Assembly (NCBI RefSeq): GCF_002258315.1
Contig: NZ_NOYD01000038.1
Coordinates: 62,001 to 126,000 of the forward strand
Direction: 5' to 3'
Origin: Rhodococcus sp. 06-462-5
GTDB lineage: Bacteria; Actinomycetota; Actinomycetes; Mycobacteriales; Mycobacteriaceae
Length of the DNA stretch: 64,000 nt
The position numbers were made by a program, and so were the translations under genes. The stretch's first letter is position 1. Every line of letters begins with the position of its first letter. Below the pieces are notes generated by a model. The model made no database searches and was not told the origin of the DNA. It saw only the letters and a list, made by a program, of their open reading frames with translations. Positions 34,317 to 41,813 of the stretch are shown here, piece after piece.

Positions 34317-35084
<768 letters not shown>

Positions 35085-35222
35085 TTAGGGCCGTCCGTGA
35101 AGGTAGTCGAGGATCTGCTCACCGTCACTGAGCCGAAATGGGACGGCAGGCGTCCACATGTTGGGATAGAAAAGGGTATTTACGCAGCTCAACCCATCTC
35201 GTGGCGCTATTGTTTCAAGTCT

Positions 35223-35243
35223 GTAACCCGACCGTTATGTGAC
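35223..35243. promoter_or_regulatory. GTAAC-like pentamer repeats, possible MtrA site
   Basis: GTAAC (35223-35227), six bases, GTTAT (35234-35238), then GTGAC (35239-35243). MtrA, the actinobacterial cell-wall response regulator, binds loosely conserved GTNAC direct repeats near rpf and peptidoglycan-hydrolase genes. The match is partial. Confidence 0.25.
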
Positions 35244-35409
35244 TCGAAACACGCAACAAAAGAGACGCGGAGCACTATTTTGGACCACCTTCGACGTGAT
35301 AAACGCGCGCCGTGACGGGTCGCAGTGCACTCGTTCGGGTGCGCGAGTGCGCCGAGAAGTCACGTGATTTGCATTGGCCGTACGCACGGTAGTAACTTCG
35401 TAGATGCAA

Positions 35410-35483
35410 CGCGGGGTGGAGCAGCTCGGTAGCTCGCTGGGCTCATAACCCAGAGGTCGCAGGTTCAAATCCTGTCCCCGCTA
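35410..35483 (+). tRNA. Initiator tRNA-Met (CAT)
   Basis: 74 bases. Acceptor CGCGGGG pairs with CCCCGCT, leaving the unpaired first position (C1 against T72) that marks initiator tRNA. Anticodon CAT at 35444-35446 in the loop CTCATAA, flanked by the three G-C pairs (GGG/CCC) required for initiation. T-loop GTTCAAATC. Discriminator A73; CCA is not encoded. A perfect terminator follows. Confidence 0.96.
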
Positions 35484-35490
35484 CTATCGA

Positions 35491-35525
35491 AAAAGACCCA
35501 GGACAGATGTCCTGGGTCTTTTTCT
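35491..35525 (+). terminator. Intrinsic terminator of initiator tRNA
   Basis: AAAA, GACCCAGGAC (35495-35504), loop AGAT, GTCCTGGGTC (35509-35518), then TTTTT. The flanking A and T tracts also pair, so it can act on both strands. Confidence 0.9.
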
Positions 35526-35539
35526 GTTTCCATTGGTGA

Positions 35540-36106
35540 ATGACCGCCGCTCGGGCGACGGGCGAACGCGATACCGCCGAGAGGACGACTCGTTTGATTC
35601 TTCCCGCCGTCCGAGACCCACGCCTCATCACAGTTCAGCGCGGCGGACTGTTGTCCGAGGACGACCATCGGAGCCTCGCGCTCTGGGCGGCCGAGTGTGC
35701 GGAACACGTTCTCCATTTGTTCGAGACGGTCGAACCCGCCGACCCGCGACCACGCGAGGCGATCGAGGCCACCCGCGCGTGGGTGCGCGGCGAACTCGCG
35801 ATGATGGCGACCCGCGCCCTGGGCGGCCACGCCATGGGAGCGGCACGGCCGCTGGACGGTTGCTCTCGCTTCGCCGCATACGCCGCGGGTCAGGCAGCCT
35901 GCGTGGCTCATGTACCCGAACACGACCTCGGAGCGGCCGCCTACGCCATCAAGGCAGCTCGGGCGGCGGCACCTGCCGGTCGAGAGACGAGTGCAGGTAG
36001 GGAAGAGCTCGAGTGGCAGCGCGACCGGCTTCCGAACAGCGTTCGGCAGCTGGTGCTGGAAGACCAGAAGAGAAGAAACAGTATCTGTTGGTCCGTGTTC
36101 GACTGA
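35540..36106 (+). CDS. Imm5-like putative immunity protein
   Basis: 188 residues, ATG start. All-helical; the core DPRLITVQRGGLLSEDDHRS, ALWAAECAEHVLHLFE and AIEATRAWVRGE, then AAGQAACVAHVPEHDLGAAA, matches my memory of actinobacterial proteins annotated as putative immunity protein (Imm5-like). No toxin with polymorphic features is next to it, so an immunity role is only a family label. Sits just after the tRNA terminator and is convergent with the GyrB-like gene (6 bases between stops). Confidence 0.6.
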   Translation: MTAARATGERDTAERTTRLILPAVRDPRLITVQRGGLLSEDDHRSLALWAAECAEHVLHLFETVEPADPRPREAIEATRAWVRGELAMMATRALGGHAMGAARPLDGCSRFAAYAAGQAACVAHVPEHDLGAAAYAIKAARAAAPAGRETSAGREELEWQRDRLPNSVRQLVLEDQKRRNSICWSVFD

Positions 36107-36112
36107 TTCCGG

Positions 36113-36508
36113 CTACCGGTTGGTGTGTTCGAGCATCTCGGACAGTGCCGCGACGGTGGACATCCCGCGTCGGGCATGGCCGTCGTCGAGCAGAACGGGT
36201 TGAAGTTCGTCGACGAAACGCACATCTTTCGTGCTGACGACAGGCTTTCGTACCGCGACGCCGTTGTCGAGTCCTCGACCGGTATCGGATACCTCGATCG
36301 TCCCGTCCGAGTGCACAGTCACGGTCGCGTGACCACCGCCCTGGTGCTCGGCTTCGTCCGCCGCGTACGCGAGTACCTCGAGAACGAGGTGCAGGACTCC
36401 GCCGGGCGCGTATTCGCCGGGTCGGGACCTGATGTGCGACAGATGATCCAGATCGACGTCCACCGACCAATCGTGTGTCGTCGTGGTCCAGGTGTGACGA
36501 CTGGACAT
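36113..36508 (-). CDS. Stand-alone GyrB/HATPase-like domain protein
   Basis: 131 residues from ATG 36508. Similar to the first part of the GyrB GHKL ATPase domain: HIRSRPGEYAPGG matches the KRPGMYIG region, LHLVLEVLAYAADEAE (39-54) matches the N-box helix, IEVSDTGRGLD (71-81) the G1 box, and RRGMSTVAALSEML (113-126) the glycine loop and following helix. The N-box Asp and Asn (EVVDN in GyrB) are Ala and Tyr here, so Mg-ATP hydrolysis is doubtful. I recall similar stand-alone proteins in other actinobacteria. Seven bases after the small acidic gene, so probably one operon. Confidence 0.65.
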   Translation of the reverse strand: MSSRHTWTTTTHDWSVDVDLDHLSHIRSRPGEYAPGGVLHLVLEVLAYAADEAEHQGGGHATVTVHSDGTIEVSDTGRGLDNGVAVRKPVVSTKDVRFVDELQPVLLDDGHARRGMSTVAALSEMLEHTNR

Positions 36509-36515
36509 CGGGGGT

Positions 36516-36713
36516 TCAGTCCGAGACCTGCTCGCGGGCATCGTCACTGGTGACCGTTTCGGAACGGGCGGTGTCTTCTGTGTCTTCCGCGTCGTCGTCG
36601 GCATCGGCGGTGAGATCGATCGTGTCCACGCCCTCGAGCGCCGTCAATTCCTGCTCCGCCTCCGCGATGAGGCCCTTCGCGTTCTCTTCCATCTTCTTGA
36701 CCCACTCGGCCAT
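36516..36713 (-). CDS. Small acidic protein of unknown function
   Basis: 65 residues from ATG 36713 (GTG 36722 is in frame upstream). An N-terminal amphipathic helix (MAEWVKKMEENAKGLIAEAE) is followed by a disordered, very acidic tail (DLTADADDDAEDTEDT). No family recognised. Immediately upstream of the GyrB-like gene on the same strand. The acidic, DNA-mimic-like tail next to a gyrase-like domain is suggestive, nothing more. Confidence 0.55.
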   Translation of the reverse strand: MAEWVKKMEENAKGLIAEAEQELTALEGVDTIDLTADADDDAEDTEDTARSETVTSDDAREQVSD

Positions 36714-36782
36714 GACGGTCACACCCTTCGCTCGATCGTGTACCACCGGTCTACCAGACTTCGTCGCCCTAGGATTCACGGT

Positions 36783-37328
36783 GTGCGAACACGAACCTCG
36801 CGTCTCGACCTCGACGAGCCGGTCGGCACCGATCTCGATGCGCTGTACGCGATCTGCAGCGACCCGCAGTCGTGGACCCACTATCCGAGCCTGCGGCACA
36901 CCGATCCCAGAGCAACCGAACGAATGTTGCAAGGCTGGTCGGAGCAGTGGCGGCGGGATGGATTGGCCACCTGGATCATTCGTGAGCGCGGCAGCCGCAC
37001 GGTCAGTGGCTACGGCGGGTGCTCGAAGCGTCGGAACGCCTTCTGGAACCTCGGCTATCGCCTCCATCCCGATGCGCAGGGCAACGGGTATGCCGCGGAG
37101 ATGTGCGAGATCGCAGTCGAGTGCGCACACCGAATCGAGCCCGAACTGCCGATCGTGGCGTATCTGCTCGAACACAACGTCGCGTCGGCCCGGGTGGCCG
37201 AACGCGCCGGCCTGGAGTTGATCACCCGTGGACCCGACATCGGCAATCCAGACGCCGACGCAGTTCGCCTGGTGTACGCAGACCGCGCGTTGACGGCAGA
37301 TCAGGTGGACGTGGTTCTCTCGGCCTGA
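36783..37328 (+). CDS. GNAT family N-acetyltransferase
   Basis: 181 residues from GTG 36783, 7 bases after TAGGAT (36770-36775), so possibly leaderless. RimJ/RimL-type GNAT fold: SRLDLDEPVGTDLDALYAI, GYRLHPDAQGNGYAAEM containing the acetyl-CoA P-loop (here QGNGYA, from the Q/RxxGxG/A pattern) and the beta-bulge strand AYLLEHNVASARVAERAGLE. Likely acetylates an amine or protein N-terminus; substrate unknown. The 3' end overlaps the convergent sigma-factor gene by 28 bases. Confidence 0.85.
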   Translation: MRTRTSRLDLDEPVGTDLDALYAICSDPQSWTHYPSLRHTDPRATERMLQGWSEQWRRDGLATWIIRERGSRTVSGYGGCSKRRNAFWNLGYRLHPDAQGNGYAAEMCEIAVECAHRIEPELPIVAYLLEHNVASARVAERAGLELITRGPDIGNPDADAVRLVYADRALTADQVDVVLSA

Positions 37329-38626
37329 CCGCAGCAGGTTCCCACCTCGGCGAGCCGACGTCGGAGCAGGCGCTTCTCCGGTGCGGTTCGGGCGAAATCC
37401 AACGCTCGGCGATACTCGACCGCGGCCTCGTCGAACCTACCGAGTCGTTGCAGCAGATCGGCTCTCGCCATGGGATACGGATGATAGCGGCGCAACGACG
37501 CCTCGTCGGCAAGCTCGTCCAGCTCTCGAAGTCCTGGTCCGGGGCCGTCGCGCATCGCCAGTGCAACAGCCCTGTTCAGCGCGACGATTGCGCTCGGTGT
37601 CCGTGTCATGAGCAAGTCGTAGAGCGCAACGATCTGGGGCCAGTCCGTGCTGTCGGCGTCCGGCGACTCGTCGTGCAGTGCAGCGATAGCGGCCTGCACG
37701 GCGTACGCGCCGCCCCGGCCGCCGCCGAGGGCCTCGACCACGAGTTCCGTCCCTTCACCGATGAACTCGGCGTTCCAGAGTCGACGGTCTTGATCTGCCA
37801 ACAGCACGATCTCGCCGTCCGGGCCGGTCCGAGCGTCGCGTCTGGCCTCGATCAGCAACATCAACGCCAGCAGCCCTGCCACTTCGGGTTCGGTCGGTAG
37901 TGCGCTGTGGAGAAGTCGTCCCATAACGATGGCTTCGGTGGTGAGATCGACTCGCCCGATGCTCTCACCCGAGGTTGCCGAATAACCCTCGGTGAAGATC
38001 GAATAGACCACCTCGAGCACCATCGGCACCCTGCCTGCCAGCTCGTCCGGGCCCGGGAGGCGAAACGGAATCCGTGCGGCCCGAATCTTGTTCTTGGCTC
38101 GCACTACTCGCTGCGCTGCCGTGGCGGGCGGGATGAGCAGCGCCCGGGCCACCTCGCCGGTGCCGAGGCCGGCCAGGCATCGAAGAGTCAGTGCGAGCCG
38201 GTCACCGGGGGCGAGGGCCGGATGCGCGCACGTGAAGAACAACTGCAGTCGGTCGTCGGGCAGAGCATCGTCGAGCGAATTGCGGCGGTTCGGTTCGCTG
38301 CGATCCGTATCCGCCTGCAGCACTCCTACTTTCGCGGCCAGGCTCTGGTCGCGTCGCAGGCGATCGACCGCCTTCCGGCGGGCAGTGGTGAGCAGCCACG
38401 CACCAGGCCTGACCGGGACGCCATCGACCGGCCAGTGTTTCAGGGCCGATTCGATGGCGTCCGAGGTCACTTCTTCTGCGAGGTCGAGGTCGCGATACCG
38501 CTGCACCAACGAGGCGAGCAGAATCGAGCGCTCGGCTCGGAAGACCGATTCGAGCGCTCGGTGAACCCCGGAATCGTTCACCGACGAATTCAGCGTGTCC
38601 GGACTGCGCCGGTCAGAATTCTGCAA
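37301..38626 (-). CDS. ECF sigma factor with long C-terminal extension (ECF42-like)
   Basis: 441 residues if translation starts at TTG 38626; GTG 38581 is a good alternative. Sigma region 2 (LVQRYRDLDLAEEVTSDAIE, then AWLLTTARRKAVDRLRRD) and region 4 (CLAGLGTGEVARALLIPPAT, RVVRAKNKIRAA). About 240 further residues form a TPR-like/DUF6596 helical domain (YSIFTEGYSATSGESIGR, RYHPYPMARADLLQRLGRFD, EAAVEYRRAL). ECF42 factors have this extension, lack an anti-sigma factor and pair with DGPF proteins, as here. The 5' end overlaps the YCII/DGPF gene by 14 bases. Confidence 0.9.
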   Translation of the reverse strand: MQNSDRRSPDTLNSSVNDSGVHRALESVFRAERSILLASLVQRYRDLDLAEEVTSDAIESALKHWPVDGVPVRPGAWLLTTARRKAVDRLRRDQSLAAKVGVLQADTDRSEPNRRNSLDDALPDDRLQLFFTCAHPALAPGDRLALTLRCLAGLGTGEVARALLIPPATAAQRVVRAKNKIRAARIPFRLPGPDELAGRVPMVLEVVYSIFTEGYSATSGESIGRVDLTTEAIVMGRLLHSALPTEPEVAGLLALMLLIEARRDARTGPDGEIVLLADQDRRLWNAEFIGEGTELVVEALGGGRGGAYAVQAAIAALHDESPDADSTDWPQIVALYDLLMTRTPSAIVALNRAVALAMRDGPGPGLRELDELADEASLRRYHPYPMARADLLQRLGRFDEAAVEYRRALDFARTAPEKRLLRRRLAEVGTCCGQAERTTST

Positions 38627-39144: not shown

Positions 39145-40365
39145 TCACTTCAGTTCTGCGGACGACTTTCCGAGCACACGACGAGCAACGATCAGCTGCT
39201 GAATCTGCTGCGTTCCCTCGAAGATGTCGAGAATCTTGGAGTCGCGGCTCCACTTCTCGAGCAGCGGGCGCTCGGAGTAGCCGTACGTGCCGGCCAGCTC
39301 CACTGCCTTGAGGGTGATGTCGACCGCCGAACGACCAGCCTTGGCCTTGGACATCGAGGCCTGGAGGGAGTTCGGCTCCTTGTTGTCGGCCATCCACGCT
39401 GCCCGCAGTGCGAGCAGATGCGCTGCCTCCCAGTCCGCTTCGAGGCGCAGGAACTCCGCGGCCGCCGCGTGCTGGTTGTAGGCAGGGGTCTCGTACGAGA
39501 TCTCGACTCCGGCCTCCACCAGGATGGACCTCAGCTCTTCGAGTGATGCCCGTGCCACGCCGATCGCCATGCCTGCCACCAACGGGCGGGTGTTGTCGAA
39601 GGTCTGCATGACGCCGGCGAAGCCTTTTTCGACGTTCACCTCGGCGGTGCCGAGCAGGTTGTCCTTCGGGATGCGGCAATCCTCGAGCAGCAGGGCTGCG
39701 GTGTCGGACGCCTTGATGCCCAGCTTGTGCTCGAGGCGCGCAACCGACAGGCCCGGAGCGTCACGCGGGACGACGAACGACTTGATGGCCGCGCGGCCGA
39801 GAGACTTGTCGACCGTTGCCCATACGACGATGTGGGTGGAACGTTCACCGGCGGTGACGTAGATCTTCTCGCCGTTGAGAACCCACTCGTCGCCGTCGAG
39901 GACAGCGGTGGTGGTCACGGCTGCGGAGTCCGAGCCGAAGCTGGGCTCGGTGATGGCCATCGAAGCCCACACCTTGCCGAAGCGCTCGAGCTGCTCGTCG
40001 GTGGATACCGCTGCGATGGCTGAGTTGCCGAGTCCCTGGTAGGGGATCGACAGCGTGAGGCCGACATCGCCCCAGCAGGTCTCGATCACGTTCACCAAGG
40101 CGGACATGTTGCCGCCGTTGGCGTTCGCGGTCTTGCTGGGCTTGGCCGACTCGCTGTCCTTCTCGCGGCCACCGGCGGCTCCACCGATTTCGCCGCCGGC
40201 GTCGGACATGCCTTCGACCATGGACGCCATGGTGTCGAGCTCCACCGGGTACTCGTGCTCGGCGAGGTCGTACTTGCGGGAAATCGGGCGGAAGATCTCG
40301 GCAGCGACCTGGTGAGCCTGATTCGCCTGCGCCCGAAGCTTCTTGGGAAGTTCAAGATTGATCAT
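39145..40365 (-). CDS. fadE23: Acyl-CoA dehydrogenase FadE23
   Basis: 406 residues from ATG 40365. Acyl-CoA dehydrogenase fold: helical N-domain, FAD/substrate segment SMAITEPSFGSDSAAVTTTA, middle beta domain (GEKIYVTAGERSTHIVVWAT), and C-domain with EGTQQIQQLIVARRVLG, where Glu of the EGT region is the usual base/FAD-contact region. M. tuberculosis Rv3140 (fadE23, 401 residues) with Rv3139 (fadE24) is the pair I recall; such pairs form alpha2beta2 enzymes acting on acyl or sterol-derived CoA. 44 bases after fadE24. Physiological substrate not settled. Confidence 0.9.
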   Translation of the reverse strand: MINLELPKKLRAQANQAHQVAAEIFRPISRKYDLAEHEYPVELDTMASMVEGMSDAGGEIGGAAGGREKDSESAKPSKTANANGGNMSALVNVIETCWGDVGLTLSIPYQGLGNSAIAAVSTDEQLERFGKVWASMAITEPSFGSDSAAVTTTAVLDGDEWVLNGEKIYVTAGERSTHIVVWATVDKSLGRAAIKSFVVPRDAPGLSVARLEHKLGIKASDTAALLLEDCRIPKDNLLGTAEVNVEKGFAGVMQTFDNTRPLVAGMAIGVARASLEELRSILVEAGVEISYETPAYNQHAAAAEFLRLEADWEAAHLLALRAAWMADNKEPNSLQASMSKAKAGRSAVDITLKAVELAGTYGYSERPLLEKWSRDSKILDIFEGTQQIQQLIVARRVLGKSSAELK

Positions 40366-40409
40366 CGTGTATGTCCTTGGGTGAGTGCCATGGAATTCGG
40401 GGCGGCGAG

Positions 40410-41813
40410 CTAGATGAGAACGATGCCCTCGGCGACGCCGACGGACCGCAGATCGCGGTACCAACGCTCGACCGGGTGCTCCTTGGTGAAACCGTGACCG
40501 CCGAGCAGCTGCACGCCGTCGGAACCGATCTGCATCCCCTTCTCGGAGGCGAGTCGACGCGCGAGCGCCGATTCACGAGCGAACGACAGTCCTTGCTCGG
40601 CCCGCGAAGCGCCGCGCAGCGTGACCAACCGCATGCCGTCGAGTTCGATGGCGATGTTGGCGACCATGAAGGCCACGGCCTGACGGTTGCTGATCGGCTC
40701 ACCGAAGGCGACACGATCGTTGACGTACGGAATGACGTAGTCCAGTACGGCCTGGCTCGTACCGACGGCCAGTGATGCCCAGCCGAGTCGAGCGAGACCG
40801 ATGGCGGCGCTGTACTCGGCGGCCCGCTGGTCTGCGTCACCGTCACCGAGCAGTGCCGACTCGGGAACTGCGACGTCGGTCAGGATCAGGCGACCGAGAC
40901 CGGCTGCGCGCAGGCCCATGCTCGGGTCGGCTTCCACGACGAGGCCCTTGGAGTCGGACTCGACGATGAAGAATGCCGGACGGCCTTCGAGTTCTGCGGC
41001 GATGACGAACAGCTCGGAACTGCCTGCAGCGGGCACCAGGCTCTTGACGCCGTTGAGCTTGTAGCCGCTGGGGGAGCGAACGGCCTTGGTCTGCAACGCA
41101 TACGGATCGAACAATGCGCGCGGCTCGTTGACGACGACAGCAGCGTTGGGCACCTTCTCACCGACGAACGCGGGAAGATAGGTCTTCTGCTGCGCGTCCG
41201 TACCCCACTGTGTGAGGGCGACGGCTACGCCGCTGGGCGCGAGGATGGGCAATGCCAGGCCCATGTCGCCGTGGGCAAGCGCCTCGGCGACGAGGGAGTT
41301 GGTGACCGCGCCACGCTCGGTGGCTGCGCCGTCGAGCTCTTCGGGAACATTGATCAGGGTGATGCCGAGCTCGGCGGAACGGCGGACCAGATCTTCTGGG
41401 GAGGAAGCGTTGTGGTCTGCATCGAACGCGGCCGGGCGGAGAATCTCCTCGGCGAACTCCTTGACCGTCTCGACGATCATGCGCTGTTCGTCGTCGGGCG
41501 TCAGGTCGAAGTAGCTCAGGTTCTTGGCGGCACCGTCGTCGAGACGCTTGGGCTTGCCGCCACCGGTGACCTTGGCGAACGTGCGATTGGCGGCGCCGAG
41601 GGTCTTGAACCCGGTCTTCGTGCTCTCGTACGTCACCCGGTCGATGGTTTGACGAAGGTTGTACTTCTCCGCCAGTTCCGATCCGGTGATGGCGGTCAGA
41701 ACGCGCATGGCGGTTCCGATCGCATCCCTCTTGAACGGGTTGAGGCCAACCGCTGAAGTATCGCGGGGCACCTTGGGGGCCTTCGCGTCGACCACACTGT
41801 CTTGCTTGCTCAT
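40410..41813 (-). CDS. fadE24: Acyl-CoA dehydrogenase FadE24
   Basis: 467 residues from ATG 41813, behind GAGGA. About 100 N-terminal residues precede the dehydrogenase core, as in M. tuberculosis FadE24 (468 residues). Core: FDLTPDDEQRMIVETVKEFA, GITLINVPEELDGA, AVVVNEP, QLLGGHGFTKEHPVERWYRD near the C-terminus. It lacks the canonical active-site Glu signature seen in many homologues and probably acts as the partner of FadE23. First gene of the operon; the promoter carries two tandem palindromic operators. Confidence 0.9.
   Translation of the reverse strand: MSKQDSVVDAKAPKVPRDTSAVGLNPFKRDAIGTAMRVLTAITGSELAEKYNLRQTIDRVTYESTKTGFKTLGAANRTFAKVTGGGKPKRLDDGAAKNLSYFDLTPDDEQRMIVETVKEFAEEILRPAAFDADHNASSPEDLVRRSAELGITLINVPEELDGAATERGAVTNSLVAEALAHGDMGLALPILAPSGVAVALTQWGTDAQQKTYLPAFVGEKVPNAAVVVNEPRALFDPYALQTKAVRSPSGYKLNGVKSLVPAAGSSELFVIAAELEGRPAFFIVESDSKGLVVEADPSMGLRAAGLGRLILTDVAVPESALLGDGDADQRAAEYSAAIGLARLGWASLAVGTSQAVLDYVIPYVNDRVAFGEPISNRQAVAFMVANIAIELDGMRLVTLRGASRAEQGLSFARESALARRLASEKGMQIGSDGVQLLGGHGFTKEHPVERWYRDLRSVGVAEGIVLI

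Follow-up and report, generated by a model that had tools for sequence, protein, structure and literature searches.

The 131-residue open reading frame (ORF) studied here lies in a window of 64,000 nucleotides of Rhodococcus DNA, the whole stretch that was analysed. As judged from alignments, it is a broken member of a stand-alone, AY-type GyrB-like family, in which Ala-Tyr takes the place of the Asp-Asn pair of the ATPase site. We hold with good confidence that the ORF is a truncated remnant of this family, and that the family has no fixed partner. The features of the locus are listed in Table 1.

Table 1 Features of the locus, in window positions.
Feature	Positions	Strand	Basis or remark
Truncated GyrB 24K-like (GHKL) ORF, 131 aa	36113..36508	-	profile matches and homologues
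N-box LEVLAYAADEAE, residues 43-54	36347..36382	-	Tyr at the Asn position in 52/52 relatives
G1 box DTGRG, residues 75-79	36272..36286	-	ORF translation; D75, G77, R78, G79 in 52/52 relatives
Site of 12-bp in-frame deletion, TDTR codons directly after GRG	36271..36272	-	DNA alignment
Junction of 198-bp in-frame deletion (AACCG|GTAG), TAG stop retained	36113..36118	-	DNA alignment
Acidic ORF, 65 aa	36516..36713	-	small family, mostly found without GyrB-like gene
Imm5-like protein, convergent neighbour	35540..36106	+	PF21805, E 2.3e-37
GNAT acetyltransferase-like by eye, divergent, beside acidic ORF	36738..37328	+	appearance and synteny

Results

A GyrB-like ORF and its family

The best NCBIfam match of the 131-residue ORF is parE_Gpos (E 9.9e-9, 34 bits), and the gyrB model matches at E 1.8e-7. 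Both scores are far under the curated cut-offs, and these weak ParE/GyrB matches span residues 20-96. Pfam HATPase_c (PF02518) gives E 1.2e-4 and 22.9 bits, just under its gathering cut-off of 26.4. On these profile scores, the likeness of the ORF to GyrB/ParE is beyond chance. The GyrB-like domain that the first-pass annotation had read from the letters is thus borne out by the NCBIfam and Pfam matches. The translation contains both motifs that it had named, LEVLAYAADEAE in place of the N-box (EVVDN..DEA in GyrB) and an intact DTGRG, and the spacing of seven bases between the 131- and 65-residue ORFs is likewise correct (36509-36515). The genome that holds the window also encodes a complete, normal GyrB.

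By profile, members of the family resemble the GyrB 24K domain at E of about 1e-24. Matches of family copies to the gyrB model fall inside positions 9-177 of 639, and the transducer, TOPRIM and tail domains are absent. Among 13 aligned members compared with Pfam, nine match HATPase_c at E <= 0.01 (best 1.2e-4), and the first member gives no match. With TIGR01059, family copies from nine genomes score 28-66 bits against a cut-off of 882, which GyrB exceeds in 9/9 of these genomes. The family passed no curated cut-off in any of the three comparisons (window against NCBIfam and Pfam, 13 members against Pfam, TIGR01059 on nine genomes). Since none of the PADLOC families matches the 13 members at E <= 0.01, a known anti-phage defence protein was rejected as an identity. 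In a literature search at the level of titles and abstract openings, none of the papers listed describes the family. We propose that it is a stand-alone variant of the GHKL/GyrB 24K-like domain for which no earlier description was found among them.

The Mg-binding Asn is replaced by Tyr throughout the family

Residue counts were taken from 52 distinct relatives, the better-scoring ones, with a median pairwise identity of 62%. They come from Rhodococcus, Streptomyces, Nonomuraea, Pseudonocardia, Flexivirga, Fodinicola and others. GyrB residues (E42, D45-N46, E50, D73, R136 and T165) are given in E. coli numbering.

Tyr replaces the Mg-binding Asn (N46) in 52/52 relatives and in the window copy, and Ala replaces the preceding Asp in 51/52. 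Y48, E44, D75, R118, R137 and T166 (numbering of family member L009) are each found in all 52 relatives. The counterpart of the general-base Glu (E42) is present in every relative and in the window, as are the adenine-binding Asp (D73) and the GxG motif, represented by D75, G77, R78 and G79. The counterparts of R136 (R137 in the alignment) and T165 are kept in 52/52 relatives. The phosphate loop GGLHGVG is absent and the loop commonly reads DGHxRRG, with G in 46, H in 41, R118 in 52, R119 in 50 and G120 in 52 of the 52 relatives. The loss of Mg-ATP residues claimed in the first reading therefore applies to D45-N46, which have become A-Y, and does not extend to E42, E50 and D73, whose counterparts are retained.

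We compared these residues with GyrB and ParE of nine host genomes: the window's own and eight others that carry a longer copy of the family gene. The host frames, chosen with the N-box pattern and equal in length to the open frames found by the gyrB profile search, carry Asn and the usual E..DN..DE in 16/16 cases. The pattern was needed because length alone picks wrong GyrB/ParE frames in several loci. Five further Streptomyces copies, read by eye, all keep the Tyr. Across these alignments, the change from Asn to Tyr is family-wide and old, and is not a sign of decay. The family is probably a pseudo-ATPase: the retained adenine side, the lost Mg ligand and the Arg-containing loop suggest that intact members would bind a ligand but not turn over Mg-ATP.

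The window copy is shortened by two in-frame deletions

Intact relatives have 203-236 residues (52 relatives), and past the stop of the window copy they run on with NRR..G.W..RYEHG.P and TGT..RF. Aligned as DNA with the intact copies of five Rhodococcus genomes, the window shows a 12-bp in-frame gap directly after GRG. This gap removes TDTR, a near-invariant motif (T in 52, D in 51, T in 51 and R in 50 of 52 relatives). A second in-frame gap of 198 bp accounts for the last 66 codons, which encode four strands and a helix. The counterparts of R136 and T165 are absent from the window copy. The short length of the ORF is due to these two deletions, and the idea of a purpose-built mini domain was not upheld.

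The identical 198-bp junction is found in a second genome, G140, where 76/80 bases around it are the same as in the window. An assembly error is for this reason an unlikely cause of the truncation. In G140 a further in-frame loss of 231 nt leaves 54 codons; the aligned start codon is changed, and another in-frame ATG lies upstream. By the dS of the flanking genes, the window is nearer to G303, which holds the nearest intact copy, than to G140. The shared deletion thus has to be explained by recombination at the locus, by lineage sorting or by a deletion that arose twice.

In an alignment of 51 relatives, 62 columns are conserved in 95% or more of the sequences. G303 keeps 62/62 of these columns and the window 46/62, with 15 gaps and one substitution, F to V. 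The arm TTTHDW, the AY N-box and RRGMS are present in the window copy, and the C-terminal RY..G and TGT motifs are missing together with TDTR. The window branch carries 2 synonymous and 3 non-synonymous substitutions and the G303 branch 7 and 3 (Fisher p 0.33); the former are too few for relaxed selection to be demonstrable.

Broken copies were also seen in Streptomyces. One (L177, genome G940) has lost everything after about residue 112 and has G for A before the Tyr, and in another (L179, G751) the first 45 or so residues are gone. An otherwise intact Streptomyces member (L178, G812) has a GAPGAPG-type low-complexity in-frame insert in the ATP-lid region.

Predicted fold of intact and truncated members

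The model of an intact Streptomyces member (mean pLDDT 78.8, pTM 0.80) is predicted to contain the whole GHKL fold. Its top Foldseek hits are GyrB 24K structures, with 6m1j at E 7.3e-17 and a TM score by query of 0.66. Residues 1-15, the region of the TTTHDW arm, have low confidence. By alignment, the window protein stops at residue 136 of this model, and strands 141-147, 156-158, 165-172 and 197-203 as well as helix 183-193 are missing. For the window protein, the best model has a pLDDT of 65.0 and the other four 50-38. Because of the absent strands and helix and the low confidence, the models make a soluble, native-like fold of the 131-residue product unlikely.

It could be argued that the truncated protein still functions in this lineage, as a minimal binding module left after loss of the lid motif and of the strands at the C terminus. 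The window copy has no internal stop and no frameshift, and its stop codon is reused. The frame was kept by all three deletions, two in the window and one in G140, for which the chance is about 1 in 27, and 46/51 conserved columns are retained within the span of the ORF. However, the short form lacks four strands and a helix and is modelled with lower confidence, and both TDTR (each residue in at least 50/52 relatives) and F104 (51/52) are lost. In addition, little of the domain is left in G140, which shares the truncation. We regard a functional short form as improbable and favour the reading of the window ORF as a truncated remnant.

The acidic gene mostly occurs separately from the domain

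The neighbouring 65-residue protein has 22 Asp and Glu and 5 Lys and Arg. Its acidic tail is as initially described, with 13 Asp and Glu against 2 Lys and Arg in residues 34-65. Homologues share a conserved first half, with a MAEW, MSDW or MSDF start and LEG in the middle, followed by a variable, mostly acidic tail. The protein has no NCBIfam match, and its sole Pfam match is CD1107-like at E 0.3. No pentapeptide repeats of the Qnr/MfpA type were detected in it by NCBIfam or Pfam.

The first-pass annotation had suggested that the two proteins could work as a pair, binding gyrase, with the tail as a DNA mimic, or sensing nucleotide. The genes do lie on one strand, seven bases apart, and the acidic gene adjoins the domain in the same order in 6/6 carriers of the Rhodococcus clade and in one remnant. 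Outside Rhodococcus, however, tblastn detected an acidic homologue in none of 46 loci (44 distinct) within the available flanks. Homologues of the acidic protein occur in 28/151 genomes of the window's taxonomic family, a sample that took in few domain-carrying members of the genus. In 26 of these 28, no GyrB-like gene lies at a distance of up to about 1.5 kb; the window itself and G140, with its remnant, are the two exceptions. The domain gene of G140 is decaying, but the acidic gene there is still open and, at a dN/dS of 0.09-0.17 in comparisons with six others, still similar. In NCBIfam and Pfam, the acidic protein also matches neither the pentapeptide-repeat nor any other known mimic family.

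A further point against the pair comes from five genomes of the same genus, in which the acidic gene adjoins the orthologue of the acyl-CoA dehydrogenase of the window (39145-40464). The distance between the two genes is roughly 100-150 bases in these loci (L083, L085, L089, L091 and L092). This arrangement fits an acidic gene that was at the locus before the domain gene. The stretch between the acidic gene and the dehydrogenase in the window was gained by insertion or, alternatively, has been lost from those five genomes.

The pair is therefore kept within the Rhodococcus clade and apart elsewhere. Outside this one clade it is not conserved, which is the outcome that the first-pass annotation had itself named as speaking against its reading. 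We rejected the acidic gene as a partner on its absence elsewhere and its separate occurrence, and find a paired function very hard to credit. On present alignments, the acidic gene looks like a neighbour and not a regular partner.

Gene neighbourhood

Flanks of up to 6 kb were surveyed at 45 loci (44 distinct, one from Rhodococcus), and no neighbour cluster is common to more than 4 loci. A conserved operon or neighbour was rejected on this result, with the reservation that neighbours may have been missed, since the codon-GC filter applied to the ORFs passed the family gene itself in 27/45 loci. A looser filter on 24 loci yielded antisense ORFs of the gene and the shared synteny of five Rhodococcus loci. 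It also returned one small cluster of Rhodococcus ORFs and a Frankiales-side ORF, taken for chance. The MFS neighbours in the locus survey and the GNAT and sigma-like neighbours were named by eye. Among RNA elements, a tRNA alone was found in positions 35000-38000.

In two further genomes, G302 and G305 (L104 and L106), just short pieces match the Imm5-like gene, which thus seems broken or divergent there. At another locus (L207, G324:C1:8516226-8516498), a gyrB fragment covering profile positions 296-386, with one internal stop, lies about 52 kb from the stand-alone gene.

Distribution, selection and phylogeny

The gene is patchy in Actinomycetes and behaves like an orphan gene that is often gained and lost. 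A protein search returned 13 loci, 12 of which belong to the GyrB-like family; the thirteenth is a locus of a cyanobacterial MAG that matches over 61 residues at 38%. A single-sequence search that covered 301 genomes from the same taxonomic family as the window found the gene in the window and in G249 only. The same search detected a 24-residue remnant in G140, and most other matches were GyrB. A profile search found the gene in 6/37 genomes of the window's genus, where the other matches were GyrB, and in 8/394 genomes of the class, the window's own genome counted. In a genus taken for Streptomyces, it is carried by 41/343 genomes; loci were obtained for 30 of the 41 carriers, and five more were read by eye.

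Ten of 72,556 plasmid records carry the gene, nine from Streptomyces and one from Pseudonocardia. These copies are annotated as ATP-binding protein, DNA gyrase, hypothetical protein or not at all. An eleventh plasmid match is the gyrB of Acaryochloris. A scan of viral_contigs with two peptide patterns confirmed no relative. In the phage collection 43 records matched, all below 60% identity; the 10 listed of the 43 are at 28-33% and two of these are annotated gyrB, so that they were taken for ordinary gyrB/parE. A phage or viral origin of the gene was rejected on these two results.

Among the five intact Rhodococcus copies (10 pairs), dN/dS is 0.16-0.23, the same range as in the flanking genes. 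Such low values indicate that the intact Rhodococcus copies are under purifying selection. A phylogeny built from 9 GyrB, 7 ParE and 16 members of the family has several weakly supported inner nodes, and two of its groupings were relied on. All family members group together with support 100, and the branch that leads to them is long, at 3.4 substitutions per site. The host ParE proteins form a clade (support 98) that excludes the family; a grouping of the family with ParE against GyrB has a support of 38.

Discussion

Taken together, we consider it likely that the window holds a truncated, probably non-functional copy of a gene whose intact members may have a non-catalytic pocket and/or mimic GyrB. 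The specific mechanism of the intact members is put forward tentatively. They would not turn over Mg-ATP, and their pocket would hold an adenine-like ligand or another small molecule. In addition or instead, they would mimic GyrB, with the N-terminal arm TTTHDW docking on gyrase. The arm sits at what is presumably the place of the N-terminal dimer arm of GyrB with its Tyr5. Its conservation at this position and the low model confidence leave room for such docking. A fuller picture, which we think rather unlikely as a whole, is that of single-domain GyrB mimics, probably horizontally moving, with a hydrolysis-dead pocket. These would regulate or shield gyrase by docking on GyrB or by soaking up ligands or antibiotics of the GyrB site, and the gene would be in the course of being lost in the window.

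Another possible role of intact members is that of a decoy for, or sensor of, aminocoumarins and other antibiotics that target GyrB, which they would bind through the retained adenine side of the pocket. Aminocoumarins contact D73, R136, T165 and also N46 in GyrB, and Streptomyces is a genus that produces GyrB-site drugs. The counterparts of D73, R136 and T165 are present in 52/52 relatives, and the gene is patchy in Streptomyces and found on Streptomyces plasmids. An MFS-type cluster, named by eye, lies near the gene in 4/45 loci, and on one Streptomyces plasmid an annotated MFS transporter is directly upstream. However, the N46 contact is a Tyr in this family. The MFS linkage is rare, with the copies at different places, and no paper on such a role was found among those listed, at the level of titles and abstract openings. 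We therefore judge a decoy or sensor role to be quite unlikely.

As for the putative non-catalytic pocket, the invariant change from Asn to Tyr makes the family well suited to asking whether ligand binding can be retained in a GHKL domain once Mg-ATP is no longer turned over. The window copy is also a caution that an apparent 'mini' domain may be the product of deletions.

Comparison with known systems

The section list of a review of gyrase inhibitors and protectors covers Qnr/MfpA, YacG, GyrI, MurI, CcdB and the ParE toxin (PMC10886550). Should intact members prove to act on gyrase or to bind drugs of the GyrB site, they would represent a class absent from this list. Neither GHKL nor GyrB-like occurs as a term in the main text of the review (PMC10886550). 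Members of the family are likewise small proteins, and would join those in the list only if action on gyrase holds. To our knowledge, none of the proteins in that section list is a GyrB-domain look-alike.

In comparison with ParE of topoisomerase IV (TIGR01058, TIGR01055), the family has the same losses as in comparison with GyrB and falls outside the host ParE clade, although parE_Gpos is the best NCBIfam match of the window ORF. The closest likeness in structure is to GyrB 24K (TIGR01059; 6m1j, 5mmo and 7ptf), with which the family shares the fold by model and profile. It keeps the counterparts of E42, E50, D73, R76, G77, R136 and T165 in 52/52 relatives. Unlike GyrB, it is a single domain without transducer or TOPRIM, and has A-Y for D45-N46 and a DGHxRRG-type loop for GGLHGVG. 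The lid is rebuilt with GTDTR, KP and RFFD, and the loop ahead of the N-box helix is shorter than in GyrB.
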